Source of the DNA: Hyphomonadaceae bacterium
GTDB taxonomy: Bacteria; Pseudomonadota; Alphaproteobacteria; Caulobacterales; Hyphomonadaceae
Direction of reading: 5' to 3'
DNA length: 64,000 nt
NCBI GenBank assembly: GCA_024742355.1
Contig: JANSYM010000002.1
Span: forward strand, 310,001 to 374,000
Part shown: piece after piece, positions 1 to 14,357 of the stretch
Position numbering within the stretch: the stretch's first letter is position 1
How the letters are laid out: the number at the start of each line of letters is the position of its first letter
The notes under the pieces: generated by a model
What the model saw: only the letters and a program-made list of their open reading frames with translations
Database searches by the model: none
Told to the model about the DNA's origin: nothing
Position numbers and translations under genes: made by a program

Positions 1-116
1 ATCGCCAGGCCCTCCAGCGCGTGTGCGACAGGCGCATCCAGTCCGAACGGCAAATGCTCAAGTGATGTCCCGCCGGTCATGCCGTCCATGGGATGAGTTG
101 AATCAGACGTGCTCAT
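1..116 (-). CDS. N-terminal fragment of an unidentified protein (runs off the window)
   Basis: An ATG at 114-116 opens a frame that stays open to the window edge, giving 38 residues beginning MSTSDSTHPMDGMTG. The start codon overlaps the TGA of the Rieske-TPP gene (TGATG), so the two are probably co-transcribed and translationally coupled. The visible part is polar, with no signal peptide or recognisable motif. I do not recognise the family. Its main value is that it extends the redox island operon beyond the window. Confidence 0.55.
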   Translation of the reverse strand, partial: MSTSDSTHPMDGMTGGTSLEHLPFGLDAPVAHALEGLA

Positions 117-2110
117 CACAACAGCTCCGCATCGGTGATGACTTCAATCAAAGACGGGCCATCATGCGCAATCGCCTTGGCGAGCGCCGCGTCGAGCTCC
201 TCGCGTGTCTTGACCAGTTCGCCCATACCGCCGCAGGAGCGGGCAAAGCCGGCAAAGCTCGGATTGACCAGGCTGGTCTGCCAGACTTCAAACTCGGCGG
301 CCTTCTGCTCCTTGGAGATTTTGCCCAGTTCGGAATTGTTCATCAGGACATGCGTGATGTTCATGCCGTATTTGACCGCAGTGGTGAATTCCATCGCGTA
401 CTGCCCGAAGCCGCCATCGCCAGAGACCGAGACAACCTTGCGGCCCTTGTAAGGCCCCTCTTCCTGTGTCGCCGCCCAGGCGCCCATGGCGGCCGGGAAC
501 GAGAAGCCGATGGAGCCGAGATAGCCTGACATCAGGACGCGCTGCTGGCCCGTCGGTTCAAAATAGCGCCCAAAGGAATAGGTGTTGTTGCCAACATCTA
601 CGGGCAAGATCGCATCCTCTGGCGCATGCCGTGTCAGCGCTTCGAACAAGGCCGCTGCGGAGACGCCTTTGCCACGGTCTTCACCGACGCGGCTTTCTTT
701 CTCGGCCCGCCAATGTGTCCAGCGCTCAGCAACTTCGCCGCGCATGTCGGTCGAAGCGGCGCCGCCGCGGGCCATCTCTGCCTTGAGCAGGTCTGCGGTA
801 ACGGCAACATCGCCCATGACCGGGACCGTCACCGGGTGACGCTTGGCAAGGCGCATCGGGTCAGTATCGACCTGAATGGTCGGGGCGCCTTCATAGATGC
901 CGGTATGGTCTGAGAAACTCGAGCCGAAGACCAGCAGCAGGTCCGCTTCATTCATGAACCAGCTGGCAATCGGGGTTCCGGACCGGCCCATGACGCCGGC
1001 GGCGAGTGGATGATCGTCGCCAATCTGCCCTTTGGCCTTGAACGTGGTGGCAACCGGCGCACCGAGTTGTTCGGCAAGCGCAATCACGCTCTCCATGCCA
1101 TTGAGCGCGCCATAGCCGACGATGATCATCGGGCGCTTGGCGCCTTTCAGCAGATCGGCCGCCTCTTTCAGCGCTGATGGCGGCGGACCAACGCAGAGAT
1201 TGGCCATTCGGCCCTCGGGCCCATAAGCCTCAGCCCCTTCCGGCGCCGGCTTCGGCTGGACATTGTCCGGGAACACCAGGTGCCCGACGCCGCGTTGCAG
1301 GATCGAGGTTTTGATCGCCTGCGTCATCAGCAGGGCATGATCAGAGGTCAGGTGCACGGTCTCGGAAAACTCGGCGACAGCTTCAAACGCGGCTTCCAGA
1401 TCAATGTCCTGGAAGGCGTGCACGCCGACGACCTGGTCCTGGACCTGGCCCGTCAGAGCCAGTGCCGGGGCACCGTCGACCTTGGCATCCCAGAGCCCGG
1501 TCAGCAGATTGGTCGCGCCTGGGCCAGCAATCGTCAGAGCCGCTGCAGGGTGTCCGGTCAGCTTGCCGTATCCGGAACAGGCGAACGCGGCGGCGCCTTC
1601 ATGGCGAATGCCGTAATAGCGCAGATTGCCTTCGGCTTCCTGCACGCGCAGTGCATCCGCCAGACCAAGATTAGAGTGGCCAACCATACCGAACACGCTG
1701 GTAACGCCCCAATTGGTCATCGTCTCGGCCATCACGTCGGCAATCGTCCGGGCGCGTGGCGGCAATGCCGGAACGCCGACATAGATGCCATCATCACGGA
1801 TATCGACATCGAACATGTCCTGGCCGGTATCTTCGTGCCCGCCAGGCGGCTTGCCGGTCAGCGGGTCAAAGTCCCAGCCATGCCACGGGCAGCGCAACCA
1901 GCACTCATCGTCAACGCCTTTCTCGATCGAGCCTTCACCAAGCGGACCGCCCTGGTGTGGACACTTATTGTCCATCGCCGCGTACTGGCCCTTGTGATGC
2001 ACCAGCGCGACCGATTGCGTGCCTGCGGTCGCGGATTTGACGCGCCCTTCGGCCACTTCATCGGTTTCGGCGACTTTGTGCCAGATCAATGTGGTCTTGT
2101 TGTCAGACAT
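116..2110 (-). CDS. Rieske [2Fe-2S]-thiamine diphosphate enzyme fusion
   Basis: 664 aa. Residues about 5-115 are a Rieske domain with C50-x-H52 and C74-x2-H77. From about residue 118 it is a TPP-dependent enzyme of the acetolactate synthase/pyruvate oxidase superfamily: a catalytic-Glu segment (RHEGAAAFACSGYGKLTG) lies in the N-terminal Pyr domain, and the TPP/Mg motif starts with GDG at 564 and ends with NN about 25 residues later. Known members decarboxylate 2-oxo acids; the substrate here is unknown. The fused Rieske domain suggests that electrons are passed to or from the TPP intermediate, as in oxidative decarboxylation (inference). An upstream in-frame ATG exists, but the start at 2110 is chosen because GAGGGGAG lies just upstream of it. 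The protein has no signal peptide and is probably cytoplasmic. It is divergent from the Rieske-glutamate synthase gene. Confidence 0.87.
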   Translation of the reverse strand: MSDNKTTLIWHKVAETDEVAEGRVKSATAGTQSVALVHHKGQYAAMDNKCPHQGGPLGEGSIEKGVDDECWLRCPWHGWDFDPLTGKPPGGHEDTGQDMFDVDIRDDGIYVGVPALPPRARTIADVMAETMTNWGVTSVFGMVGHSNLGLADALRVQEAEGNLRYYGIRHEGAAAFACSGYGKLTGHPAAALTIAGPGATNLLTGLWDAKVDGAPALALTGQVQDQVVGVHAFQDIDLEAAFEAVAEFSETVHLTSDHALLMTQAIKTSILQRGVGHLVFPDNVQPKPAPEGAEAYGPEGRMANLCVGPPPSALKEAADLLKGAKRPMIIVGYGALNGMESVIALAEQLGAPVATTFKAKGQIGDDHPLAAGVMGRSGTPIASWFMNEADLLLVFGSSFSDHTGIYEGAPTIQVDTDPMRLAKRHPVTVPVMGDVAVTADLLKAEMARGGAASTDMRGEVAERWTHWRAEKESRVGEDRGKGVSAAALFEALTRHAPEDAILPVDVGNNTYSFGRYFEPTGQQRVLMSGYLGSIGFSFPAAMGAWAATQEEGPYKGRKVVSVSGDGGFGQYAMEFTTAVKYGMNITHVLMNNSELGKISKEQKAAEFEVWQTSLVNPSFAGFARSCGGMGELVKTREELDAALAKAIAHDGPSLIEVITDAELL

Positions 2111-2265
2111 TATTTGTCTCCCCTCGCTTGCTTTCCGCTGCCCTATCGAAAACAGTACGGTATGGCATATCAAAAGTCGTTCACATTTTTTTGGGGTCTT
2201 GTGATTGGCCAGCCATAGAGTCGCTCGATACAGGCGGGGCAACTGATTGAGAGGGGAGCGTTCTG
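2111..2265. promoter_or_regulatory. Divergent promoter region of the redox island
   Basis: 155 bases separate the start codons of the two divergent Rieske fusion genes. It carries a strong ribosome binding site for each side (GAGGGGAG on both strands) and an AT-rich centre with a run of T at about 2188-2194. Both transcription units must start here, so this is the obvious place for shared control. I see no operator that I can name. Confidence 0.5.
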
Positions 2266-3882
2266 ATGAACAAGATTGCTATCGCGAAATGGGATGACCT
2301 GGCCGACCGTCAGCCCGAATATGCCATTGTCGGCGAGGTCGACCTGGTGGTCGTGCGATTTGATGACACCGTGTCTGTCTTCTATGGCCGCTGCCTGCAT
2401 CGCGGCGCGCTGATGTCGGACGGCCATGTCGACGCCAATGACAATCTGATTTGCGGCGTCCACAATTGGGACTATCGCCTGGATAGCGGCGTCTCCGAGT
2501 ATGAGAATTCCGAGGCCTTGCCGAAATTCCAGTCCTGGATTGAAAGCGGCGACGTTCTGGTTGACGAAGACGAGATCAAGGCCTGGGGCTTCGCCAATCC
2601 GCAACCTTATCAGCGTGACCAGTATCTCGGCCTCTACCAGGACCCGAGCCATGGCGAGCATGAAGAACCGCTCAATGGCCTGATCCAGCAATATGCCCGC
2701 GACGGCCTCAGCAAGGTCGGGCATCATGGCGTGGTCGACGCGATGGGGGTTCCTGGAAAAGATCTGCCAAAATGGGACGACATCCAGATCATCACGGCGC
2801 AGCTGCACAAGATGCCCTTGTTGGACGATGAACCCGTGGACACGCGGACGGTGATTGGTCCGAACGCCCAGAAGCCTCTGCATCTCGATATCCCGCTGTT
2901 CGTGTCGGACATGAGTTTCGGCGCCCTGTCCGAGCCCGCCAAAGTCGCGCTGGCGCGCGGCGCCGAGCTGTCGGGCACCGGCATCTGTTCCGGCGAAGGC
3001 GGCATGCTGCCCGAGGAACAGGAAGCCTGTTCGCGCTATTTCTACGAGCTGGCATCGGGCCGGTTCGGCTTTTCCTGGGACAAGCTCGAAAAGGTCCAGG
3101 CCTTCCACTTCAAGGGCGGCCAAGGTGCCAAGACCGGCACGGGCGGACACTTGCCCGGCAACAAGGTCAAAGGGAAAATCGCGCTGGTGCGCGGTCTGAA
3201 AGAAGGCGAATCTGCCATCTCCCCACCGCGTTTCCCGGATTGGACCGAGGTCAGCCAGATCAAGGATTTCGCCGATCAGGTCCGCGATCGCACCGGCGGC
3301 ATCCCGATTGGCTACAAACTCTCGGCGCAGCATATCGAGAAGGATATCGATGCTGCCCTGGAAGTCGGGGTCGATTATATCATCCTCGACGGACGCGGCG
3401 GCGGCACCGGCGCGGCGCCGACCATCTTCCGGGACAATATCTCCGTGCCGACCATCCCGGCTTTGGCGCGGGCGCGCAAGCACCTCGATGATGCTGGCCG
3501 GAGCGACATCTCGCTGGTCATCACCGGCGGATTGCGCAAGCCGGCTGACTTCGTCAAAGCCATGGCGCTTGGCGCCGATGCCATCGCGGTTTCGAACTCG
3601 GCCATGCAGGCGATTGGCTGTATCGCCATGCGCGCCTGCCACACCAATAATTGCCCGGTTGGAATCGCCACCCAGAAGCCGCACCTGGTGTCGCGACTGG
3701 TGATCGAGAAGTCGGCGCATCGTCTCAAGAATTTCTTCGACGCCTCAACCGATCTCATGAAAGTTATGGCGCGCGCGTGCGGACATAGTAAGCTGGCGGA
3801 ATTCAACGCCGACGATCTGACCACGTTCAGTCGTGAAATGTCTGATCTTTCCGGCGTCGCCTATGCGGGAGTGGGACGATGA
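2266..3882 (+). CDS. Rieske-glutamate synthase (FMN domain) fusion
   Basis: 538 aa. Residues 1-105 are a Rieske domain (C43-x-H45, C63-x2-H66). Residues about 150-520 are the FMN-binding synthase domain of glutamate synthase, with the [3Fe-4S] cysteines C452, C458 and C463 at the C-x5-C-x4-C spacing typical of GltB. It lacks the N-terminal glutamine amidotransferase domain and the C-terminal GXGXG domain of full GltB, so it cannot release ammonia from glutamine by itself. Stand-alone FMN-GltS proteins are known and some act on amines (family knowledge); the substrate here is unknown. GAGAGGGGAG precedes the ATG. First gene of a five-gene overlapping operon. Confidence 0.88.
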   Translation: MNKIAIAKWDDLADRQPEYAIVGEVDLVVVRFDDTVSVFYGRCLHRGALMSDGHVDANDNLICGVHNWDYRLDSGVSEYENSEALPKFQSWIESGDVLVDEDEIKAWGFANPQPYQRDQYLGLYQDPSHGEHEEPLNGLIQQYARDGLSKVGHHGVVDAMGVPGKDLPKWDDIQIITAQLHKMPLLDDEPVDTRTVIGPNAQKPLHLDIPLFVSDMSFGALSEPAKVALARGAELSGTGICSGEGGMLPEEQEACSRYFYELASGRFGFSWDKLEKVQAFHFKGGQGAKTGTGGHLPGNKVKGKIALVRGLKEGESAISPPRFPDWTEVSQIKDFADQVRDRTGGIPIGYKLSAQHIEKDIDAALEVGVDYIILDGRGGGTGAAPTIFRDNISVPTIPALARARKHLDDAGRSDISLVITGGLRKPADFVKAMALGADAIAVSNSAMQAIGCIAMRACHTNNCPVGIATQKPHLVSRLVIEKSAHRLKNFFDASTDLMKVMARACGHSKLAEFNADDLTTFSREMSDLSGVAYAGVGR

Positions 3883-4109
3883 GTGAAGCTGCAGCCGAGA
3901 CGCTGGTCATGGCACTGGGCCTGTATTTCCTGGTCGGGGCATTGGTCGGCCTGGCTTACATGTTTGGTGGTGCCGGGCGAATTGACCCGGCTGCAAAAGG
4001 CAAGGGATTGCCGATCCGCGTCAGGCTGTTGATCTTCCCGGGTATTGTTGGTCTCTGGCCGCTCATGCTGACCAAGCTGTTCACGCAGAAGGAGCCGCCA
4101 GTCTCATGA
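3879..4109 (+). CDS. Small membrane protein (76 aa) of the redox operon
   Basis: Two hydrophobic segments are visible, at about residues 9-29 and 47-64, separated by a short polar loop (GGAGRIDPAAKGKGLPIR). The start overlaps the upstream stop (ATGA), as does its own stop with the next gene, which supports real translation. No family recognised. A small subunit of the membrane redox complex is plausible from position alone. Confidence 0.7.
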   Translation: MSEAAAETLVMALGLYFLVGALVGLAYMFGGAGRIDPAAKGKGLPIRVRLLIFPGIVGLWPLMLTKLFTQKEPPVS

Positions 4110-4255
4110 AACGCGCGCATCGACGAGTCCATTTTGCGATGTGGACAATCATTGCCCCATTGATCCTGTGGCTGCTGTTTCTGGCCTTCGGGGATATTCC
4201 CCCCACACCACAAAACGAGGCGCTGCCCGATGCACTGACCGAGGAGGCGACCTGA
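4106..4255 (+). CDS. 49-aa single-pass membrane micropeptide of the redox operon
   Basis: ATG at 4106-4108 overlaps the TGA of the previous gene, and its TGA at 4253-4255 overlaps the ATG of the next. The product starts MKRAHRRVHF, has one hydrophobic helix (about residues 11-28, MWTIIAPLILWLLFLAF) and ends in an acidic tail. Positive charges lie before the helix, so the N terminus is expected inside. It is too short for most gene callers. The overlapping codons on both sides are the main evidence that it is a gene. Function unknown. Confidence 0.6.
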   Translation: MKRAHRRVHFAMWTIIAPLILWLLFLAFGDIPPTPQNEALPDALTEEAT

Positions 4256-5301
4256 TGTCTCACGACTACAAGATGGTGCAATGGAACCCGTTCAAGAAGC
4301 GGTTTGATGTATGGATGCTGAGCGGCATCGCACTTTATCTGGTCGCGTTCGTGGCGCTGACCTATGCGACGCAGCCCGCGGGCAACAGCTTCACGCCAAT
4401 CCAGGCCATGATCCGGGCGACCGGCACCCTCGCCTTTCTGATGCTCAGCTTCATCCTCTGCATCGGTCCGGTGGCGCGCTTTACCCACAGGTTCAAGCCG
4501 TTTCTTTACAATCGACGGCATATCGGGGTCGTCACCTTTTTGATTGGGCTGGTGCATGGTGGCCTGGTCCTGCTCTGGTATCACGGATTTTCCGAGACCA
4601 ACGCATTCGTCTCATTGTTCGTTTCCAACCCCGAATATGGAAGCATTTCAGGATTTCCGTTTGAAGTGCTCGGCTTTATCGCGCTGATCATCATGTTCCT
4701 GATGGCTGCAACGAGCCATGATTTCTGGAACGCCAATCTCGGTCCCGGTACCTGGAAAGCGCTGCATATGGGCGTCTATGTCGCCTATGCCTTGCTGGTC
4801 GCGCATATCGCTCTGGGCATTCTACAGTTTGAAAAACGGCCCATCTTCTTCGCGATCCTGGGAACCGGCGCCCTGTTCGTGATCGCGCTGCATCTGATAT
4901 CCAGCATTGCCAGCCTGCGCCTGTCAGACCGTATCGGACACGAAGGCTGGCTGCGCGTGGCGGAAGTCCATGAACTCGAAGACACACGCGCAAAGATCAT
5001 CCGCCCTGTAGATGGCGACGCCATCGCCGTGTTCCGGGATGGCAACAAGATTGCCGCCGTCTCCAATATCTGCCGTCATCAGGGCGGACCGCTCGGCGAA
5101 GGCAAGGTCGTGGACGGCTGCATCACCTGTCCCTGGCACGGCTTTCAATACCGGATGGAGGATGGCCAGTCGCCACCGCCCTTTACGGAGAAGATCGCCA
5201 CCTATGCCACGCGCATCATTGACGGCACGGTCTACGTAAATCCGAAGCCAAATGAACCCGGCGCGCCACAAGCGCCGAGCGAAATAGGAGTCAGCGCATG
5301 A
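4255..5301 (+). CDS. Cytochrome b-like ferric reductase domain-Rieske fusion
   Basis: 348 aa. Residues about 20-225 form about six transmembrane helices of the ferric reductase-like (MsrQ/NOX) type, with candidate haem histidines H89, H101, H171 and H184. Residues about 230-330 are a Rieske domain (C273-x-H275, C292-x2-H295). It would move electrons between membrane haems and a [2Fe-2S] centre on the cytoplasmic side. A longer reading frame upstream exists, but the ATG at 4255 is preferred because it follows GAGGAGGCG and overlaps the stop of the small membrane protein (TGATG). It is the likely membrane partner of the two soluble Rieske fusions. Confidence 0.85.
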   Translation: MSHDYKMVQWNPFKKRFDVWMLSGIALYLVAFVALTYATQPAGNSFTPIQAMIRATGTLAFLMLSFILCIGPVARFTHRFKPFLYNRRHIGVVTFLIGLVHGGLVLLWYHGFSETNAFVSLFVSNPEYGSISGFPFEVLGFIALIIMFLMAATSHDFWNANLGPGTWKALHMGVYVAYALLVAHIALGILQFEKRPIFFAILGTGALFVIALHLISSIASLRLSDRIGHEGWLRVAEVHELEDTRAKIIRPVDGDAIAVFRDGNKIAAVSNICRHQGGPLGEGKVVDGCITCPWHGFQYRMEDGQSPPPFTEKIATYATRIIDGTVYVNPKPNEPGAPQAPSEIGVSA

Positions 5302-6047
5302 GCCAAGATGACTTTTTTATCGGATGGGCCAAAACACCTGAAATCGATCGCCGTTTCATGATGGGCGCTGGCTTGAGCATCATCACAGGCACCGCGGCTG
5401 TCGGCATCGGCATTGCCGCGCGGCAACGACCCGTCGGCCCCGGCACGTGGAATATGGGCGAGGTGCGCGAATGGCGCGGCATCGCCACGGCCGAGCCTTA
5501 TGGCATGCTGAGAACGCTCGATCTGGACGGCACCGAACGCACGGCGCTGCTCGGCTGTCAGGGCAAATGCGGTGTCAGCGCCAAGATTGGCGCGCTGGCA
5601 GGCAAGCCTGTTGTGGTCAAAGGCTCTCTCATTCAGCGCGGCCGTCACACCATGATCGCCGTGATTGATGGCCTGGACTGGATTCGCGAGGACCCGGAGG
5701 GCAGCGTTGACGGGCTCGCCTTCCCGCAACCTGAGCCGATTATGGACGTCTCCCTGGAAGGGGAGATTCTGGACACGAAATGCTGGTTCGGCGCCATGCG
5801 TCCGGCGCAAGGCAAGACGCACAAATCCTGCGCCAGCCTGTGCATTCGCGGCGGCCTGCCGCCAGCCTTCTATGTCCGCGACATGAAAGACCAGACGGCT
5901 TTGATGATCATGACCTCAGGCGGATATGGTCACAATAAGGACCTTCTGCCTTATGTCGCTGATCCGGTCGCGATTACCGGGCGCTTGCAACGCCTTGGCG
6001 ATCTGTTCCTGCTGGATGCGCCGGTAAGCGCGATCACAAGGCTCTAA
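5298..6047 (+). CDS. Membrane-anchored cysteine-rich protein of the redox operon
   Basis: 249 aa. One transmembrane helix (about 21-41) follows a short N terminus. The remainder has a CQGKC pair (C87, C91) and a striking motif, KCWFGAMRP (C162), then KTHKSC (H175, C178), LCIRGGLPP (C182). I have seen this Cys/His signature in uncharacterised proteins near Rieske proteins but know no assigned function. The spaced Cys/His residues could bind a metal or haem. The start overlaps the previous stop (ATGA). Its stop shares four bases with the convergent gene. Confidence 0.75.
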   Translation: MSQDDFFIGWAKTPEIDRRFMMGAGLSIITGTAAVGIGIAARQRPVGPGTWNMGEVREWRGIATAEPYGMLRTLDLDGTERTALLGCQGKCGVSAKIGALAGKPVVVKGSLIQRGRHTMIAVIDGLDWIREDPEGSVDGLAFPQPEPIMDVSLEGEILDTKCWFGAMRPAQGKTHKSCASLCIRGGLPPAFYVRDMKDQTALMIMTSGGYGHNKDLLPYVADPVAITGRLQRLGDLFLLDAPVSAITRL

Positions 6048-6820
6048 TTGGTCGCCCCGAAGCTCGCGCCCGTCTTGTCGAAATAGGCACGCCAGAAGGC
6101 CCGGACCTCGTCAATCGGCAAATCATATTCCTGACGTGGCACAATCCGCGCGACGACGTTGACGCCGTCCATCTGCGGCACTTGCTGAGACAGCGACGCG
6201 TCCGAATAGGCGGCGAGATCAGCACCTGTGCGATAGAATGAGAAGCCGTCAGAATGCTGCATCAGGTCCGACACGATGACCAGGCGCCGGTTCTGGCGAT
6301 TGCTCTGGAAATCGGCCCGGTCACCAACGGAATAGAGCGCCTCAAATAGAGGCGAGCTTGGCTGACTGGTGGTCTTCAGCGTTTCACCGACCGTATTGGT
6401 CAGCGGCAGATAGAATTGCTCGCGCCAGGTGTCGTCGATCATGCGCGGGTTTTGCAGGATCGGATTGGCATCCTCGACGCTGCCTGGCGAACACTGCGTA
6501 TACAGCGTGGTCGGATCAAACGGTGTGGCGCTGTTGGGCAAGACGACGCTGAGCCGCCCGAACCGCGGCAGGCTGCGCGCCTCATTGTCGATCAGCTCAT
6601 CGACCCAGGCGAGATCATTCTCACTGAACGGATCAGACTGGTCGATCAGGATGATCGTGTGCGCCGGATCCTTGCGATCCATTCGGCACGCCGTGTCCAT
6701 ATCAAGCGCCGGCGCGGAATTGAACGCCGCGACGGAGAACAATCCGATCACCGAAAACAACATCACGCCAATCGCGCTACGCCAGAACCAGGGGCCTCTT
6801 TCTCTAGGACGCGCCATCAT
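6044..6820 (-). CDS. VWA-like membrane-anchored hypothetical protein
   Basis: 258 aa. One N-terminal transmembrane helix (about 12-33) is followed by a probably periplasmic domain. HTIILIDQSDPFSENDL resembles the first strand and metal-site start of a von Willebrand A-type fold, and RRLVIVSDLMQHS resembles a later strand of such a fold. The canonical DxSxS is altered to DQSDPFS. The last four bases overlap the cysteine-rich gene tail to tail. It follows the larger membrane protein by 14 bases, so both are likely one operon. GGAG lies upstream of the ATG. Function unknown. Confidence 0.65.
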   Translation of the reverse strand: MMARPRERGPWFWRSAIGVMLFSVIGLFSVAAFNSAPALDMDTACRMDRKDPAHTIILIDQSDPFSENDLAWVDELIDNEARSLPRFGRLSVVLPNSATPFDPTTLYTQCSPGSVEDANPILQNPRMIDDTWREQFYLPLTNTVGETLKTTSQPSSPLFEALYSVGDRADFQSNRQNRRLVIVSDLMQHSDGFSFYRTGADLAAYSDASLSQQVPQMDGVNVVARIVPRQEYDLPIDEVRAFWRAYFDKTGASFGATN

Positions 6821-6834
6821 TCATCTCCGTGCTT

Positions 6835-8418
6835 TCAGGCCGACTTCGCGTCGTCCCGGTTTTGACTGGCCATGCGGGCTTCGCGGACTTTAGCGACTTC
6901 CTTGTTGACCTGTTTCTGAATCGAGGACAGGCCCTTCTGGACCGACTGGATATGCGTCTCGAGCCATTCGCGCGACAGATTTAGCGCGGTCAGGTTCTGC
7001 TCGATCGTCTTGATCGCCGCATTGGCTTGCTCACGCTCCTTGGTCAGGTCGAAGCCAGGCAGGTTTGGCGTCACAATCTCATCGAAATAAGCCGGGATCG
7101 CCGCCTGCTCACCAAGCTTGTCGCGGAACTTGTTGCGGGCGCGGCGATGCGCCTGCCGGTAGGCGATCTTCAGCGAGCGCTCCTGGTCACCTGCCTTGGC
7201 CGCGATGCCGACCGCCTTGTCACGATTGGCCTCGAGGACATTGAGCGACTTCTCAATCTCGCGCTTGGCGGCCGTGTGACGCTTGTGCTGGGTTTCGAAC
7301 CAGAACCGGCAGCGGGTGAAATAGTCCGAAAGATCATCCCGGACGCCATTGCGCACAGCCTGGCGTTTCTCATAGGCCAGACGTTCCTTGCGCCAGACCC
7401 GGCCATAGCCCGGATAACGATCGGAAATCTTGTCATAGCCTTCATAGATGGCGACCCCGAATATCGTCAGGCCGATCAGCAACAGGCCAATGGCGACCAG
7501 CGAGTCCAGTCCGAATATGTTCGGGAACATGCTCGCGACAACCGCGCCAGGCGAAATGTCGAACATCGAGAAGCCGGCCAGCGATCCGGCATCCTGGGCC
7601 GCGTGCAGGCTGACCTCCACCGCGTCGCGGAAATGCGCGATGAAGAAGTTCAGCATAATGCCGAACGTGACCAGCACACCGGCGACAATCCCGCCGGCAA
7701 TCTTGAAGCCCTTGTCCGGATGGTTAAGGTAGCGCAGGCCAAAGAAGCCGGCGAGGACACCGGTCAGCACGTTCACGGCGCTGATGCCGAACGCGACCAT
7801 CATACCGCCCATCAGGCCGGATGACTGGGCATCCTTGAACAGCAGCGCGTTGAAACAGCCCTCAATGATCATGATCATCAGCAGAATGGCGAGGGTCTGC
7901 TCGACATTCTTCTTGATGTCTGGCGTGCGCTTGCCGATGCGGTCGCTGTGCTGCTGTTTGAAATGCTGAAGCTCGACCACGGTGGCATCGTGGTGATCAC
8001 GCGCCGATTCCGCGTCGTCGACCTCATAATGCCGGAACTCGTTCTCCTCGGCCTTGATAACCTCGCGCAGGTGATCGGGATGAATATCTGCTGGCGTGCA
8101 ATCCTGGATGAAGTTGCGGACACCGGCCGCAGTACCGCTCATCCAGGTTTCGAGGCTGCGGCGCACACCGCCAGCGCGCTCAGCAATTTCCTGCTCGCGC
8201 TCGCTCCACTGATCTTCGGTGATCGCCTCTGAGGCCGGGACGGCATCCTCGGCATCTTCCTGGGCAATCTTGCGTGTGCGCCCGCGGCTGAACCCGAGAT
8301 CGCCTTCCGACAGCTTGCCGCGAAGACCATGCTTGGCCAGCGACTCCTTCGCGCGGAAAGCCTTGATCGAATTTTGGTATCCAATGTCCGCGCCCCAGCG
8401 CACCGATTTTCTACTCAT
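6835..8418 (-). CDS. Polytopic membrane protein with coiled-coil domains
   Basis: 527 aa from the ATG at 8418; a slightly longer version from 8433 (ATG) or 8439 (TTG) is possible. A hydrophilic N-terminal region of about 170 residues with helical, charged sequence is followed by four to five hydrophobic helices (roughly 175-350). A long charged C-terminal region after that looks coiled-coil (many K/R/E/Q, no Pro). I do not recognise the family. Its partner is the VWA-like gene downstream. The pair could form an envelope complex (inference). Confidence 0.65.
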   Translation of the reverse strand: MSRKSVRWGADIGYQNSIKAFRAKESLAKHGLRGKLSEGDLGFSRGRTRKIAQEDAEDAVPASEAITEDQWSEREQEIAERAGGVRRSLETWMSGTAAGVRNFIQDCTPADIHPDHLREVIKAEENEFRHYEVDDAESARDHHDATVVELQHFKQQHSDRIGKRTPDIKKNVEQTLAILLMIMIIEGCFNALLFKDAQSSGLMGGMMVAFGISAVNVLTGVLAGFFGLRYLNHPDKGFKIAGGIVAGVLVTFGIMLNFFIAHFRDAVEVSLHAAQDAGSLAGFSMFDISPGAVVASMFPNIFGLDSLVAIGLLLIGLTIFGVAIYEGYDKISDRYPGYGRVWRKERLAYEKRQAVRNGVRDDLSDYFTRCRFWFETQHKRHTAAKREIEKSLNVLEANRDKAVGIAAKAGDQERSLKIAYRQAHRRARNKFRDKLGEQAAIPAYFDEIVTPNLPGFDLTKEREQANAAIKTIEQNLTALNLSREWLETHIQSVQKGLSSIQKQVNKEVAKVREARMASQNRDDAKSA

Positions 8419-8584
8419 ATTGCCCAATCCCATTAACAAAGTCGGCCCAGATATTAACCGTACTGAAAATCGGTGCTGGGCCTTAACAACCTCCTAAGAC
8501 CGAAAACTGAGTCCGCCGTGCGCGGGCTTAAATTTCCGTCATTAAGTTTTGAGGCTTGATTTTGTTAATGAAACTGGTGGGGCG

Positions 8585-10147
8585 CTATTCCCACTCAATC
8601 GTCCCGGGCGGTTTTGAGGTGATGTCATAGACCACCCGATTCACGCCTTTGACTTCATTGATGATTCTCGTCGCCACGCGGCCGAGGAAATCATGCTCAA
8701 ACGGGAAATAGTCCGCCGTCATGCCGTCTGTAGAGGTTACCGCGCGCAAGGCGAGGACGTTTTCATAGGTCCGCTCATCGCCCATCACGCCGACTGTGTT
8801 TACAGGCAGCAACACCGCGAAGGCCTGCCAGATTTTGTCATACAGCCCGGCATTTCGCAGCTCTTCCAGATAAATCGCATCGGCCTTGCGCAGCGTGTCG
8901 GCTTTGTCGCGCGTAATCTCGCCCGGAATACGAATGGCGAGGCCCGGGCCAGGAAATGGATGACGCCCGATAAACGCGTCCGGCAGGCCAAGCTCACGCC
9001 CAAGCGCGCGGACTTCATCCTTGAACAGGTCCCGCAGCGGCTCAACCAGCTGCATATTCATGCGCTCCGGGAGGCCGCCAACATTGTGGTGGCTCTTGAT
9101 CGTCACTGAAGGTCCGCCAATCGCGCTGACACTCTCGATCACGTCCGGATACAGCGTGCCCTGGGCGAGGAAATCGGCGCCGCCAATCTTCTTCGCTTCT
9201 TCCTCGAACACATCGATGAACAGTTTGCCGATAATCTTGCGCTTGCGCTCCGGGTCGCTGACGCCGTCCAGTTCGCCGAGGAACAGGTCTGAGGCATCCA
9301 CATGCACGAGCGGGATATTGTAATGCTCGCGGAACAGGCTGACGACCTGCTCGCTTTCATTCATCCGCATCAGACCATGGTCGACATAGACGCAGGTCAG
9401 CTGGCTGCCGATCGCTTCGTGAATGAGGACCGCAGCCACCGAACTGTCGACGCCGCCGGACAGGCCGCAAATCACGCGGCCGGAGCCCACCTGCTCGCGT
9501 ATTTTCTCAATCGCTTCGTCGCGATAGGCCGCCATGGTCCAGTCGCCTTTGAGGCCGGCAATCTTGTGGGTGAAATTCTCAAGCATTTTCGACCCGTGCA
9601 GCGTGTGCACGACTTCCGGGTGGAACTGAGTGCCGTAGAATTGCCGTTCGGGGTCCGCAATCACCGCATAAGGCGCCCCGGCGGATTTCGCGATGACGAA
9701 AAAGCCATTCGCCATTTCCGCGACATGGTCGCCATGGCTCATCCAGACCTGCTCGCCTTCGCCATCAAAGGACAGGCCGTCGAGGATGGGATCGTCGAGC
9801 ACCTTGTCGATAAAGGCGCGGCCAAACTCGCGGCTGGTGCCGCTTTCGACGCGGCCGCCGAGCTGCTCCATCATCACCTGCTGGCCATAGCAGATGCCGA
9901 GCACCGGAACCTTGCGACTGAACACGGCAGGCGGGACGCGCGGACTGTCCTCCCAGGTCACACTGGCCGGACCTCCGGAGAGGATAACCGCCTGCGGATT
10001 ATAGCTTTCCAGAAAGCCGTCATCGACCTTGTTGAAGGGGTGAATTTCGCAATAAACGCCGCTTTCTCTCAGCCGGCGCGCGATGAGCTGCGTCACCTGG
10101 CTGCCAAAGTCGATAATCAGGGCGCGTTCGTGTTTGTTCTCAGCCAT
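8585..10147 (-). CDS. guaA: GMP synthase (glutamine-hydrolysing)
   Basis: 520 aa, the usual full length. It converts XMP plus glutamine and ATP to GMP in the cytoplasm. The N-terminal class I amidotransferase domain has the nucleophile motif GICYGQQ and a His-x-Glu in FHPEV. The ATP pyrophosphatase domain has the P-loop SGGVDSS, and the C-terminal dimerisation domain ends in the conserved KPPGTIEWE. Stands alone on the minus strand. Confidence 0.98.
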
Positions 10148-10191
10148 GCGGCCCTTTAGCTGAGTCCCGTCTCGGGCTCAACCGGGCTGTA

Positions 10192-10854
10192 TCAGGACCC
10201 GAAGGGTGAGCTCGGGCGACGACGTCCGAACAGACCACCGCCATCTTGCACCAGCGGCGTCGCTTTCTTGCGCGCCAGCGCGGGTTTGTGCACCGGACGC
10301 GGCTTCTGGCGCGATGCACTCGGCGTCGCAGGAACAGCGCGCGGTTGCTCCGGCTTGGCGCTTTGTCGGGGTGTCGGCGCAGGAAATGGGACCGGCGGCT
10401 GCGCGACTTCGACCGCTGTATCGGCCGGCACATGTCCGGCCTTGTAGGCTTGCATCAGCAAAGCCAGGCGTTTTGCCGGAATGCCGACCGCTGGAATGGA
10501 ATGGGTGCCACCGGCCAGGAACTTGGCCGCCTTGCCCATCGTCGTGCCCTCTTTGTTGACATGCGTGAAGGACACCATGTTCGCGGCAGTCACGACGCCG
10601 GACTTGATCTTGCGGGTACGGAAGTCGCCAATATCATCCCATTTATAGGATTTCTCCGACCACCAATTGCGAACGGTCAGGCCATCATGCGACAAGGACA
10701 GGCGCTGCAATACGCCTGAGCCGGTGAGGACAAAAAACACGGCCAGGATGAAACCAAAGCCCGGCACCAACAGAAATGACGCGGCAGCGCCTGCAAACCA
10801 TTTCCATGCGGTGGGTGTCAGCGTAGTGACGCCGTTCTCAGTCTTTACTGCCAT
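10192..10854 (-). CDS. Membrane protein with PH-like domain and basic Pro/Ala-rich tail
   Basis: About 220 aa from the ATG at 10854 (GGAGG lies upstream; an earlier in-frame start at 10869 is less likely). Two hydrophobic stretches at about residues 18-45 are followed by a region resembling bacterial PH-like domains (LSHDGLTVRNWWSEKSYKWDDI). The last 70 residues are rich in Pro, Ala, Arg and Lys and look disordered. The function is not known. Separated from guaA by 44 bases; same strand. Confidence 0.6.
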   Translation of the reverse strand: MAVKTENGVTTLTPTAWKWFAGAAASFLLVPGFGFILAVFFVLTGSGVLQRLSLSHDGLTVRNWWSEKSYKWDDIGDFRTRKIKSGVVTAANMVSFTHVNKEGTTMGKAAKFLAGGTHSIPAVGIPAKRLALLMQAYKAGHVPADTAVEVAQPPVPFPAPTPRQSAKPEQPRAVPATPSASRQKPRPVHKPALARKKATPLVQDGGGLFGRRRPSSPFGS

Positions 10855-10936
10855 TATTCGTCCTCCCAATCAGGGGGTTATGGCAGATCCGGTTGAAAGT
10901 GAGGCAAATCCGGGCGCGCAATTTACGCCGGGTGCA

Positions 10937-12244
10937 TTAACCGTGTTTTCTCAGCACCGCGAAGAAGAAACCGTCCGTTCCAGCGCTGCGCGGCGTCAGG
11001 CGTACGCTGCCCGACGGCCCCTGCCCCGCTTTGATGACGGCAATGCCTTCATCGGTCAGCAGGTCGCTTTCACTGGCATGCTGAACCGCGTCTTCCTGCG
11101 TCCACCCTTCGTTCGCGGCGAGGAACGCATCGACCCGGTCCTCGTCTTCCTCGACCAGGAAAGAGCAGGTCGCGTAGAGCAAGCGCCCGCCAGGTTTCAC
11201 ATAAGCCGCTGCCTTGGACAGCACTTCGTCCTGTTGCTCGATCCGCGTTGCGAGGGATCTGGGTTTGACCCGCCACTTGGTGTCCGGGCGTCGGCGCCAG
11301 GTTCCGGTTCCGGTGCACGGCGCGTCGACAAACACGCAATCCATTTGCCCGGCGAGCGCTTCAAGCGCTTCCGGCTCACGCGGATGCAGCAGTTGTACAT
11401 TGTGCGCCCCCGAGCGCTTCAAACGCGGAATGATGGCGCTGAGGCGCCGTCCATCAATATCATAGGCGAAGACCTGGCCTTTTCCGCCCATCGCCGCCGC
11501 AAGCGCCAGCGTCTTGCCGCCGCCGCCAGAGCAATAATCGAGGACCTGCTCACCAGGTTTCGCATTGGCCGCGGCCGCTGCAATCTGCGACCCGGCATCC
11601 TGCACCTCGACCCAGCCTTTTGAGTAAGCCGGAATATTATCCAGGCTCGCCTCACGCTGTGACGGGTCACGGGCCGGAATGTGATAGGCATGTTTTAGCA
11701 GCCGCGACGGTTCCGCCCTGGCGCTGCGCAAGGGCCCGCCGGCTTTCTCGGCATCGACTTTCAGCGTGTTGACGCGCAAGTCGACATCAGCGCGAACCGC
11801 CATGGCTTGCCCTTCGACAGCCGCCAGTTCCCCGAACGCGCGTTGCATGTGCGGCGTCAGCCATTCGGGATAATCGCCGCTGACATGCGCCTCGGCCGTG
11901 ACATCCGGCGCCATGACCAGACGCTCGCGCTCCTGCAGGGTCAGCGCACTCGGGGCGTGCTGCTCGTCCATGGCCTCATCAATGCGGCGAATGTCCCAGT
12001 TCCAGGCAAAGCTGAGCGCGCCGAGCACAAGCCCGCGCGGCGTATCATCGCCCATTGCATGGGCAATCGAATTGCGTTTGCGCAAAGCATCCAGGACCAG
12101 GCCTGAAACCCAGGCACGGTCTTTCGAGCCCGCATACCGCGCCCGCTTGCCCCAGTCGCGCGCCGCGACTTTGACCGGCTGGTGCCGCCCCAAAACATCG
12201 CTCAGAACGTCAATCGCTGCTGCTATCCGGCCACCATCACGCAT
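10937..12244 (-). CDS. RsmB/NOP-family rRNA cytosine-C5 methyltransferase
   Basis: 435 aa. An N-terminal NusB/RsmB-like helical part is followed by a SAM-dependent methyltransferase domain. SAM motif I appears as VLDYCSGGGGKTLALAA, the DAPCTGTG motif holds one conserved cysteine, and ATCSF holds the catalytic cysteine. It probably methylates a cytosine in 16S rRNA, but the exact target cannot be assigned. The start at 12244 is preferred over the upstream ATG at 12334 because GGAGAG sits just upstream and homologues begin close to RIAAAIDVL. Confidence 0.88.
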   Translation of the reverse strand: MRDGGRIAAAIDVLSDVLGRHQPVKVAARDWGKRARYAGSKDRAWVSGLVLDALRKRNSIAHAMGDDTPRGLVLGALSFAWNWDIRRIDEAMDEQHAPSALTLQERERLVMAPDVTAEAHVSGDYPEWLTPHMQRAFGELAAVEGQAMAVRADVDLRVNTLKVDAEKAGGPLRSARAEPSRLLKHAYHIPARDPSQREASLDNIPAYSKGWVEVQDAGSQIAAAAANAKPGEQVLDYCSGGGGKTLALAAAMGGKGQVFAYDIDGRRLSAIIPRLKRSGAHNVQLLHPREPEALEALAGQMDCVFVDAPCTGTGTWRRRPDTKWRVKPRSLATRIEQQDEVLSKAAAYVKPGGRLLYATCSFLVEEDEDRVDAFLAANEGWTQEDAVQHASESDLLTDEGIAVIKAGQGPSGSVRLTPRSAGTDGFFFAVLRKHG

Positions 12245-12473
12245 CAAGGCTCTCCTTATCGAGCGAGGTGTGTACGCGGCGCGGCCGCCAATGCAAAGAG
12301 GCGGAAGTCGGTTGAGACTGTCAGAGAATGACAAAGGCTCATGATTACGCTTGTTTCATAGAGGCATTTTTGGCGACGCGGGCACTCCCGCGACGCATTT
12401 TGGAGTCTGCCTGACAGGAGACTGAGCTGCAATCGTGCATGAAAATAGACTGAGGGGCACAGAGGATGAAACT

Positions 12474-13511
12474 GTGGGCTCAGACTATACGATTGAAGTT
12501 AAACATCGATTGAATCTCGGCGCGACGCCGGTCGATGTCAAAACCCTGTCCTTCTCGACCCCGAAGCGGACCATCGCGAGCGTTCTGTCGGAGACACATT
12601 CGGTCTTGTTGTTTTCGATCGGCGATACATTCCCGACATCTCGCATTCTGGTCAACGAGGACCCGATCGAGATTTCGGGTGGTGGCCGGGATCTCGCTTA
12701 TGTCGCCTGCCGCGCCTCGCGCACCGTCGATGTGATTCGCAAGACCGGGTATTGCAAACGCATCGACCTCCCCGGGGAACCACAGAGTCTGGCCTGGAAT
12801 GGCAGTTACAATCCGACCCGGCAAAAGATCATGGTGACCTGCCAGATGCCGGGCACTGCTGACGGCGTCGTGGTTGTCATAGATGAAGAGACGCTGTCGA
12901 TCACCAATGTCCTGGAGGTCGGCAAACAGCCGCGCGGCATCAGCCTGGATTGGCGGCGCAAACACTTGCTGGTCTCCAATTATGGCAGCGACTCAATATC
13001 GATCATTGACCAGGCGGGCACCCGCGTGCTCGCGACGTTGCCGACTGCGGGCCAACCCAGATCCATCAATGTGTCCTGGTCCAACCCGCAGGATGTCATT
13101 ATTGCTCTCGGTGGCGGCGGTATTCTGCAGCGGATGGACGCGTCGCGTTTTCCCCCGACCCTTTCCGGACTCACGGCGCTCAAGAAACCGACAAAACCGC
13201 CAACCAGTCTGGCGCCGTATTGCTGCACGCCTTTGGACGAGGATGAATTGTGGCTGGTCCCTGATCAAAATGCCGAAGCCATCGCACTGGTTGTTTCAGA
13301 CGAACGGGAATTGAAACAGGTCGATTATTGCCGCCTCGGCACCGATGACAAAAGTGAGGAAGGCCTCGGACAGGTGGTGATTTCCGGCCATGGCCTGCCA
13401 GGCTCTCTTTGTATCGCCAATCGCAAGCGTAAAGAGCTGATGTTCGCGCGCATGCAGCGCAAGAAACGTCCGCTGTCGCCGCGCAGAGCGCCTAGCCGCG
13501 GAACGCGGTGA
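12474..13511 (+). CDS. YncE-like beta-propeller protein
   Basis: About 345 aa from the GTG at 12474, which has AGAGG about 9 bases upstream; a GTG at 12435 would add 13 residues. Repeated blade-like units are visible, for example VGKQPRGISLDWRRKHLLVSNY followed by GSDSISIIDQ, typical of 40-residue YVTN/YncE propeller repeats. No signal peptide is visible, so it may be cytoplasmic. Ligand unknown. The C terminus is very basic. Its last 20 bases overlap the convergent RidA gene. Confidence 0.7.
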   Translation: MGSDYTIEVKHRLNLGATPVDVKTLSFSTPKRTIASVLSETHSVLLFSIGDTFPTSRILVNEDPIEISGGGRDLAYVACRASRTVDVIRKTGYCKRIDLPGEPQSLAWNGSYNPTRQKIMVTCQMPGTADGVVVVIDEETLSITNVLEVGKQPRGISLDWRRKHLLVSNYGSDSISIIDQAGTRVLATLPTAGQPRSINVSWSNPQDVIIALGGGGILQRMDASRFPPTLSGLTALKKPTKPPTSLAPYCCTPLDEDELWLVPDQNAEAIALVVSDERELKQVDYCRLGTDDKSEEGLGQVVISGHGLPGSLCIANRKRKELMFARMQRKKRPLSPRRAPSRGTR

Positions 13512-13878
13512 CCTCAATCTCGATCAACATTTCCGCTTCGATCAATCCGGCAATGACCATGGTCGCGGCGGGTCGGACCTCACCGAGATACTGTTCCAGA
13601 ACCGGCTGCACCTGAGAGACCAGGCCGCGATCGGCGACCGTGTATTGTACGCGGGCAATGTCGCGCATTTCGAAACCGGCCTCGGCGAGAACTGCGGCAA
13701 TGGTTTCAAAGCAATTGCGCGCCTGATCCGCGATGCCCTCCGGCATCTGCATGGATGCATAGTCATATCCTGTGACGCCGGAGACGAAACACCAATCGCC
13801 CTGAACGATCGCGCGGGAATACCCCATTGTCTTCTCGAACGGCGATCCGGTCGAAATGAGTTGGCGAGACGAAGGCAT
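13492..13878 (-). CDS. RidA family (YjgF/YER057c/UK114) protein
   Basis: 128 aa, normal length for the family. RidA proteins hydrolyse reactive enamine/imine intermediates made by PLP enzymes. The conserved arginine in EVRPAATMV and the terminal IEIEVTAF block are present. The subgroup is not archetypal RidA, so the exact substrate is uncertain. Divergent from the MAPEG gene. Confidence 0.85.
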   Translation of the reverse strand: MPSSRQLISTGSPFEKTMGYSRAIVQGDWCFVSGVTGYDYASMQMPEGIADQARNCFETIAAVLAEAGFEMRDIARVQYTVADRGLVSQVQPVLEQYLGEVRPAATMVIAGLIEAEMLIEIEVTAFRG

Positions 13879-13946
13879 GGCGCGTTCCTTTGCTGATATT
13901 CCGAAGCGCTTTACACTGCCGACAGGATTATTGGGAGGCTAAATCC

Positions 13947-14357
13947 ATGCACACCGTCATCTTGATCTGTTCTGCCAGCCTGGCGGTCCTGACCCTCTTG
14001 CTGGCATTCTGGACCAGTGCGCAGCGCGGGGCGAGCAAGACCATCGCCTATGGCGCGCCGCTTGATCCGACCTCAACCATGGCCAAGGCGCAGCGCGCGC
14101 ACGGCAACTCCGCCGAATATACGGCGCTTTTTATCGGCCTGTTTCTGGTCGTTGGCTTTGCTTATCAGGGCCGCGACCTCGGCGCGCTGGTGACCTGGAC
14201 GATAATCGCGGTGACCGTCGCCCGCGTCATCCACGCGCTCGGCATCCTGACCTGTCAGACACTGGAAAAGCCACATATATTGAAAGCGATCGGCGCGCTG
14301 GTGACCTATCTCGGCGGATTGCTGCTGGCAGGCCTGGCGATTTCCCAGGCCTTGTAG
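13947..14357 (+). CDS. MAPEG family membrane protein
   Basis: 136 aa with four hydrophobic helices and the family pattern KAQRAHGNSAEYTALF. MAPEG proteins include microsomal glutathione transferases and related enzymes; bacterial members mostly have unknown substrates. The start at 13947 is chosen over 13890 because GGGAGG lies 8 bases upstream. It ends two bases from the convergent enoyl-CoA hydratase gene. Confidence 0.8.
   Translation: MHTVILICSASLAVLTLLLAFWTSAQRGASKTIAYGAPLDPTSTMAKAQRAHGNSAEYTALFIGLFLVVGFAYQGRDLGALVTWTIIAVTVARVIHALGILTCQTLEKPHILKAIGALVTYLGGLLLAGLAISQAL

Follow-up and report, generated by a model that had tools for sequence, protein, structure and literature searches.

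The thiamine diphosphate (ThDP) enzyme PoxB of Escherichia coli contacts the membrane for quinone reduction through its C-terminal arm, a lipid/quinone arm; the large subunit of glutamate synthase contains an FMN/3Fe-4S domain; and the ferric reductase domain superfamily (STEAP, NOX, and MsrQ/YedZ) is marked by four haem-ligating histidines in transmembrane segments (TM) 3 and 5 and by a characteristic fold. We analyzed a locus where genes for relatives of all three, each fused to a Rieske domain, lie together in the first 6 kb of a 64,000-nucleotide stretch, here called the window, from a Hyphomonadaceae bacterium (alphaproteobacteria; GenBank assembly GCA_024742355.1, contig JANSYM010000002.1, positions 310,001 to 374,000). 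These genes, termed A to E, form a redox module that is real, recurrent, and, as far as the literature was searched, undescribed. CDGSH-Glu_synthase and CDGSH-Rieske proteins are listed as architectures in one source (PMC5859297) and FRD-Rieske in another (PMC3591440), and these are the same single fusions as those of some B and A relatives and of D. The portions of these two sources that bear on the fusions link them neither to one another nor to a ThDP enzyme. Our literature search found no account of the whole gene set, in agreement with a first-pass annotation, made from the letters of the DNA alone, which could name no described pathway with this set.

Rieske fusions and neighboring membrane proteins

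Six genes fill positions 116 to 6047 of the window, and a DUF1622 gene crosses its left edge (aa, amino acids):

1 to 119, minus strand: 5' end of a gene for a DUF1622 membrane protein (145 aa in total, the remainder lying left of the window; Pfam DUF1622, 64.8 bits), overlapping the end of A
116 to 2110, minus strand: A, N-terminal Rieske domain and three-domain ThDP enzyme, PoxB/acetolactate-synthase-like (664 aa; Pfam)
2111 to 2265, no strand: divergent A-B spacer of 155 bp, with conserved blocks in four aligned Hyphomonadaceae loci (window included)
2266 to 3882, plus strand: B, N-terminal Rieske domain and FMN/3Fe-4S glutamate-synthase domain (538 aa; Pfam)
3879 to 4109, plus strand: C, membrane protein with two hydrophobic segments (76 aa)
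4106 to 4255, plus strand: C', membrane protein with one hydrophobic segment (49 aa)
4255 to 5301, plus strand: D, six-TM ferric-reductase-domain protein with a C-terminal Rieske domain (348 aa; Pfam)
5298 to 6047, plus strand: E, membrane-anchored, predicted periplasmic Cys/His protein (249 aa)

The first-pass annotation had read three intact Rieske domains (C-x-H and C-x2-H motifs), fused to a thiamine pyrophosphate (TPP) enzyme, an FMN glutamate synthase, and a ferric reductase, together with two micro-membrane proteins, and the Pfam domains and ligands of A, B, and D and the hydrophobic segments of C and C' bear this out. It was also right about the arrangement: the plus-strand genes overlap by ATGA at B/C, C/C', and D/E and by TGATG at C'/D, A diverges from B across the 155-bp spacer, and the coupling to a gene beyond the left edge is the overlap of A with the DUF1622 gene. 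Its reasoning left E, a further member of the cluster, unnamed.

The cluster proteins were searched against Pfam and NCBIfam profiles (significance threshold, 1e-3). At least 573 relatives of B were confirmed in a scan of named genomes, and the best 80, closest to the B of the window, were analyzed with at most 8 kb of flank per side (termed the 80 B loci). Residue conservation was assessed by searching 106 loci, with filters of 45, 50, and 35% identity for A, B, and D, respectively, and 90% coverage, which favor intact copies; this left 64 A, 90 B (95 for the 3Fe-4S cysteines), and 35 D sequences.

Protein A comprises a Rieske domain (63.7 bits) and three TPP-enzyme domains, and its best PDB sequence match is PoxB (3ey9/3eya; E value, 3e-62), with which it has the three ThDP domains, the catalytic glutamate, and the GDG region in common. 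The Rieske ligands (C50, H52, C74, and H77) and the catalytic E171 are present in 64/64 filtered sequences; in the GDG...NN motif, D565 is found in 64, G564 and N592 in 60 each, and N591 in only 29. The two proteins differ at their ends: the N-terminal Rieske domain belongs to A and not to PoxB, whereas the C-terminal 42 residues of PoxB have no counterpart in A, as the alignment stops at PoxB residue 530 of 572 and A ends 2 residues on. A scored below the cutoff for each of the 25 NCBIfam families listed, and an acetolactate synthase is encoded besides A in 4/4 genomes checked. Three of five A relatives searched with Pfam have CDGSH domains before the Rieske domain, and two of these three also have a Fer4_19 (4Fe-4S) domain. 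In two genomes of one family (G130 and G232; L180:8988-13560 and L182:5676-10190), ilvD adjoins an A that combines CDGSH, Fer4_19, and Rieske domains (assigned by Pfam in L180 and by sequence reading in L182), and a valyl-tRNA-synthetase-like gene lies nearby; this neighborhood is a hint of branched-chain 2-oxo acids.

Protein B joins a Rieske domain (46.2 bits) to a Glu_synthase domain (PF01645; 303.1 bits). The Rieske ligands are conserved in 90/90 and the 3Fe-4S cysteines C452, C458, and C463, common to B and the glutamate synthase large subunit (7mfm and 1ofd), in 95/95 filtered sequences, and the active-site E, K, and R of glutamate synthase align with E244, K289, and R309 of B. However, the glutamate synthase loop AKPGEGGQ reads AKTGTGGH in B, with T290 (95/95 sequences), T292 (93/95), and H295 (94/95) where the aligned glutamate synthase has P, E, and Q. 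B also lacks the glutaminase/amidotransferase domain, its own feature being the N-terminal Rieske (or CDGSH) domain, and it fails the NCBIfam equivalog for GltB (134.7 bits over positions 865 to 1163 of 1490; cutoff, 1047).

What CDGSH and Rieske domains, two unrelated folds, have in common is a [2Fe-2S] cluster with histidine ligands. A tandem CDGSH replaces the Rieske domain in the B of Vibrio fortis (by Pfam) and of four sampled alphaproteobacteria (as read from sequence), and one genus outside the Alphaproteobacteria holds both types (Rieske in G307, CDGSH in G295). The B relative of a Pseudoalteromonas plasmid (L162:7887-10028) has neither and carries an extra C-terminal domain of ∼250 aa. 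In a tree of B domains, which used 34 of the 80 loci and is not settled, the five CDGSH-type sequences and L162 form one clade (98/95), three haloarchaeal sequences cluster (97/100), and the Rieske-type group is weakly supported (74/0). Since Rieske, CDGSH, and Fer4_19 domains vary among B and A relatives, the N-terminal position appears to hold an interchangeable unit for electron transfer or sensing.

Protein D contains a Ferric_reduct domain (53.6 bits) and a Rieske domain (60.2 bits). The Rieske ligands and the haem-type histidines H89, H101, H171, and H184, which lie in hydrophobic segments 3 (residues 88 to 110) and 5 (169 to 192), are present in 35/35 filtered sequences, and the predicted structure model of D combines a STEAP/NOX transmembrane fold with a Rieske domain, so that D has both the histidines and the fold of the superfamily. 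Full-length NOX and FRE proteins have FAD/NADPH domains after the TM domain, where D instead has its Rieske domain. D fails the NCBIfam equivalog for MsrQ (49.3 bits; cutoff, 130). A homologue of C occurs in 35 of the 80 B loci; in 11 loci, the C slot is taken by one longer open reading frame (ORF; 116 to 145 aa), which may include C', the match in the C' half being weak. E matches no Pfam or NCBIfam family at 1e-3. Its residues C162, H175, C178, and C182 are invariant in 25 aligned sequences, and it is present in 32/33 B loci having D and in none without D. In Ruegeria arenilitoris (L081:9714-10652), the antiporter gene and B are accompanied solely by two fragments, one of 131 aa resembling E and one of 134 aa that matches the Rieske portion of A; these are decayed or reduced versions.

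Co-occurrence and genomic distribution

The 80 B loci include Roseobacteraceae, Paracoccaceae, Stappiaceae, Rhizobiaceae, Hyphomonadaceae, and Sphingomonadaceae. We found A near B in 52 of them (on the same strand in 48 and on the opposite strand in 4), D in 33, E in 32, a Na+/H+ antiporter gene in 40, and DUF5996 in 11. Twenty-five loci have <6 kb on one side, so that the absence of a gene there is uninformative; among the 55 flanked by 6 kb or more on each side, 38 have A, 28 have D with E, and 24 have A, D, and E together, and 7 lack all of A, D, E, and the antiporter. One gene order seen often is antiporter-B-C-D-E-small gene-A; another is antiporter-B-A.

We then looked at 289 alphaproteobacterial genomes with protein-specific thresholds, counting B when the match was full-length and started at residue 1 to 6 and E only where the match was strong (14 of the 19 genomes listed). 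Full-length Rieske-type B was found in 8 genomes, A in 13, D in 15, and E in 14. A, D, and E are all present in 7 of the 8 genomes with B, the eighth (G074) having a completeness of 67%. Hypergeometric p values, which ignore phylogeny, were 4e-10 for A-B, 2e-9 for B-D, 3e-7 for A-D, and 6e-23 for D-E; the A-B value was 8e-9 without the genome of the window and 2e-6 by family, with the number of families taken as 156 from the highest family label. The three modules occupy a long contig each in G123 and extend over ∼67 kb in G009 and G143. Co-occurrence thus exceeds chance, even where the genes lie apart. The grouping at the locus is not due to chance either, because these 6 kb contain three of the seven Rieske domains found genome-wide (3.46 Mb) and the genes co-occur in other genomes.

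The first-pass annotation had gone further and suggested one pathway. The cluster that it saw is confirmed, but one fixed pathway is not supported, and several findings weigh against a fixed set: Rieske-type B is missing in 6/13 genomes with A and in 8/15 with D, A or D occurs in 0/4 genomes with a CDGSH-type B, and the three modules (A; B; C-D-E) each occur alone as well. In a broader sample of 378 Pseudomonadota genomes, a B relative with a Rieske or other N terminus was found in 40; A was found in 5 genomes, each of which also has full-length Rieske-type B. At the thresholds used, A and B were not found in 2/2 same-genus and 2/2 same-family genomes of this sample, and the gene set is therefore accessory. 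Among the matches listed, the named relatives closest to the B of the window are metagenome-assembled genomes of Henriciella (Hyphomonadaceae; 90 to 91%), and cultivable marine bacteria with relatives of the cluster genes include strains of Roseibium, Ruegeria, and Hoeflea. Overall, many marine alphaproteobacteria have conserved the cluster, and haloarchaea share part of it.

In a set of 72,556 plasmid records, three, each haloarchaeal, carry full-length B (59 to 60% identity); A is carried by four haloarchaeal plasmids (60 to 62%) and one Mycobacteroides plasmid (52%). All three haloarchaeal B plasmids also carry A, and the Haloferax plasmid carries A only. The order on the Halorarius plasmid is A, Na+/H+ antiporter, K+ channel, two small genes, and B; A and B are 1.4 kb apart in Salinirubellus and ∼17 kb apart in Halorubrum. 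D was found on five plasmids; the three that were read, all of Rhizobium, have D-E without A or B nearby, and close to D-E are genes for an SDR, a CoA transferase, OpgC, and another ThDP enzyme (28% to A). The CoA transferase-OpgC-ThDP-TPR set is again found alongside D-E in G009. On the plasmid of Rhizobium leguminosarum WSM1689 (L163), the annotated neighbors of D-E are a sigma-70 factor, DUF1109, and chlorite dismutase family and NrsF family proteins.

In some lineages, the neighboring genes hint at oxidative or electrophile stress. In one family from another class of the same phylum (f175, presumably gammaproteobacterial), B is surrounded by genes for cytochrome b561, YceI, pirin, and CDGSH proteins in three of five loci read. 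An old yellow enzyme, a GST-type protein, and a nitroreductase are each encoded in two of these three loci; in one of the three, msrA is directly beside B, and an msrA-msrB gene lies close by in a fourth locus. Genes for OxyR-like and KatG proteins are found next to the cluster in 2 of the 80 alphaproteobacterial loci, and the deposited annotation of haloarchaeal neighbors includes pirin, peroxiredoxin, DsrE, and MerA-type genes. An ECF sigma factor and a zf-HC2 anti-sigma factor are encoded near B in 9/80 loci, and in G216 a D gene is followed by one for a Rieske-FMN-reductase protein.

Further observations concern the surroundings of the genes. In L175 (G218; 8962-14345), D-E and a small gene are directly followed by three putative TRAP-transporter genes, and similar putative genes come after A in L043, L051, and L057. 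The A-B spacer blocks GCATATCAAA and GTGATTGG are kept nearly or fully across the four aligned Hyphomonadaceae loci and are a possible promoter or operator. The DUF1622 gene was matched in 3/80 B loci, Hyphomonadaceae in each case, and its 3' end adjoins that of a 1,557-aa ORF left of the window (L003:9012-13685), for which Pfam at 1e-3 gives only a short match to a Dyp-type peroxidase C-terminal region. On the other side, two genes (258 and 534 aa; window positions 6044 to 8439, minus strand) are convergent with E and retained beside it in both Henriciella loci; neither matches a Pfam family above its cutoff.

Proposed electron flow and alternative explanations

We tentatively favor the view that A, B, and C-C'-D-E cooperate as a redox module in which Rieske [2Fe-2S] domains serve as the wiring. 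A would most likely decarboxylate 2-oxo acids at ThDP, presumably with FAD, and pass the electrons into its own Rieske domain, which would stand in for the quinone-reducing C-terminal membrane arm of PoxB. B would be a cytosolic FMN/3Fe-4S oxidoreductase of the amino/imino-acid type, exchanging electrons via its Rieske domain. The Rieske domain of D should be cytosolic, according to the topology we infer; electrons would enter there and cross to the outer face via two b haems, and D would reduce the periplasmic Cys/His domain of E and/or the quinone pool, with C and C' as small subunits of D. The role might perhaps be electron disposal or supply under oxidative or electrophile stress.

In NOX and STEAP, electrons flow outward. 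The first-pass annotation had proposed the reverse for this locus, with electrons moving from a membrane haem protein to the TPP or FMN enzyme, but outward flow is likelier because D has the STEAP/NOX fold, the four haem histidines, and the expected cytosolic Rieske domain, and we conclude that the cluster probably moves electrons outward across the membrane. A similar pairing of a haem membrane protein with a periplasmic partner, as D with E, is found in MsrPQ methionine sulfoxide repair, which has been linked to stress in other bacteria (PMC8315932), although MsrP is of the molybdopterin type and E is without any family match. In an inward scheme, electrons from quinol or haem would enter at D, reach the Rieske domains of A and B by way of its own, and power reductive reactions, such as ammonium-dependent glutamate-type synthesis by B. 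B does retain E244, K289, R309, and the 3Fe-4S site of glutamate synthase, and the cluster encodes no other electron donor for it. We nevertheless consider this scheme quite unlikely: MsrQ, of the same superfamily as D, is reported to hand electrons to a periplasmic partner (PMC5676040), B has T290, T292, and H295 in place of P, E, and Q and no amidotransferase domain, and a full-length canonical glutamate synthase is already encoded besides B in 8/8 genomes checked.

The Rieske domains of A and B could instead be gates that sense redox or pH and switch the enzymes, D-E being a separate, co-regulated conduit. The occupation of the B slot by two unrelated folds, the empty slot of L162, the series of two CDGSH, one Fer4_19, and one Rieske domain in some A relatives, and the sigma/anti-sigma pair near B would all fit such gates, which we judge unlikely given that D, whose Rieske domain is most readily read as a wire, has the same Rieske type and that the internal electron path of B is maintained through its 3Fe-4S cysteines. 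It is improbable that A and B are metabolic helpers of an adjoining Na+/H+ antiporter and K+ channel in ion or pH homeostasis. A Na_H_Exchanger gene does lie near B in half of the 80 loci, with a K+ channel gene between A and B on the Halorarius plasmid, and, by annotation, 3 kb from A on the Mycobacteroides plasmid; the window, however, has no such neighbor, the single match in the whole genome is only 27% identical, and D-E would be left unexplained. Independent genes without a common function, gathered by accessory-island transfer, would account for the patchy distribution among close relatives, the variable order, and the modules found alone, but co-occurrence without adjacency in G123 and the pairing of A with B again in another domain of life make this very improbable.

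A bolder reading is a previously undescribed "Rieske-wired" electron-export system, in which cytosolic ThDP and glutamate-synthase-type enzymes, each bearing a His-ligated [2Fe-2S] domain of its own (Rieske or, in some relatives, CDGSH), feed D, a di-haem protein of the STEAP/NOX fold with a Rieske domain in place of flavin domains, and then E as a new periplasmic Cys/His protein, and in which A-B pairs have been transferred between bacteria and haloarchaea; we regard this as possible but doubtful. If true, it would show that a membrane haem protein of the STEAP/NOX type can also be fed through a Rieske domain, instead of by flavin domains or quinol, and that a ThDP oxidase can deliver its electrons to an iron-sulfur wire rather than to quinone. 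It would also suggest that Rieske and CDGSH clusters are interchangeable at one enzyme position, and the role of prokaryotic CDGSH domains would therefore be testable by comparing Rieske-type with CDGSH-type B.

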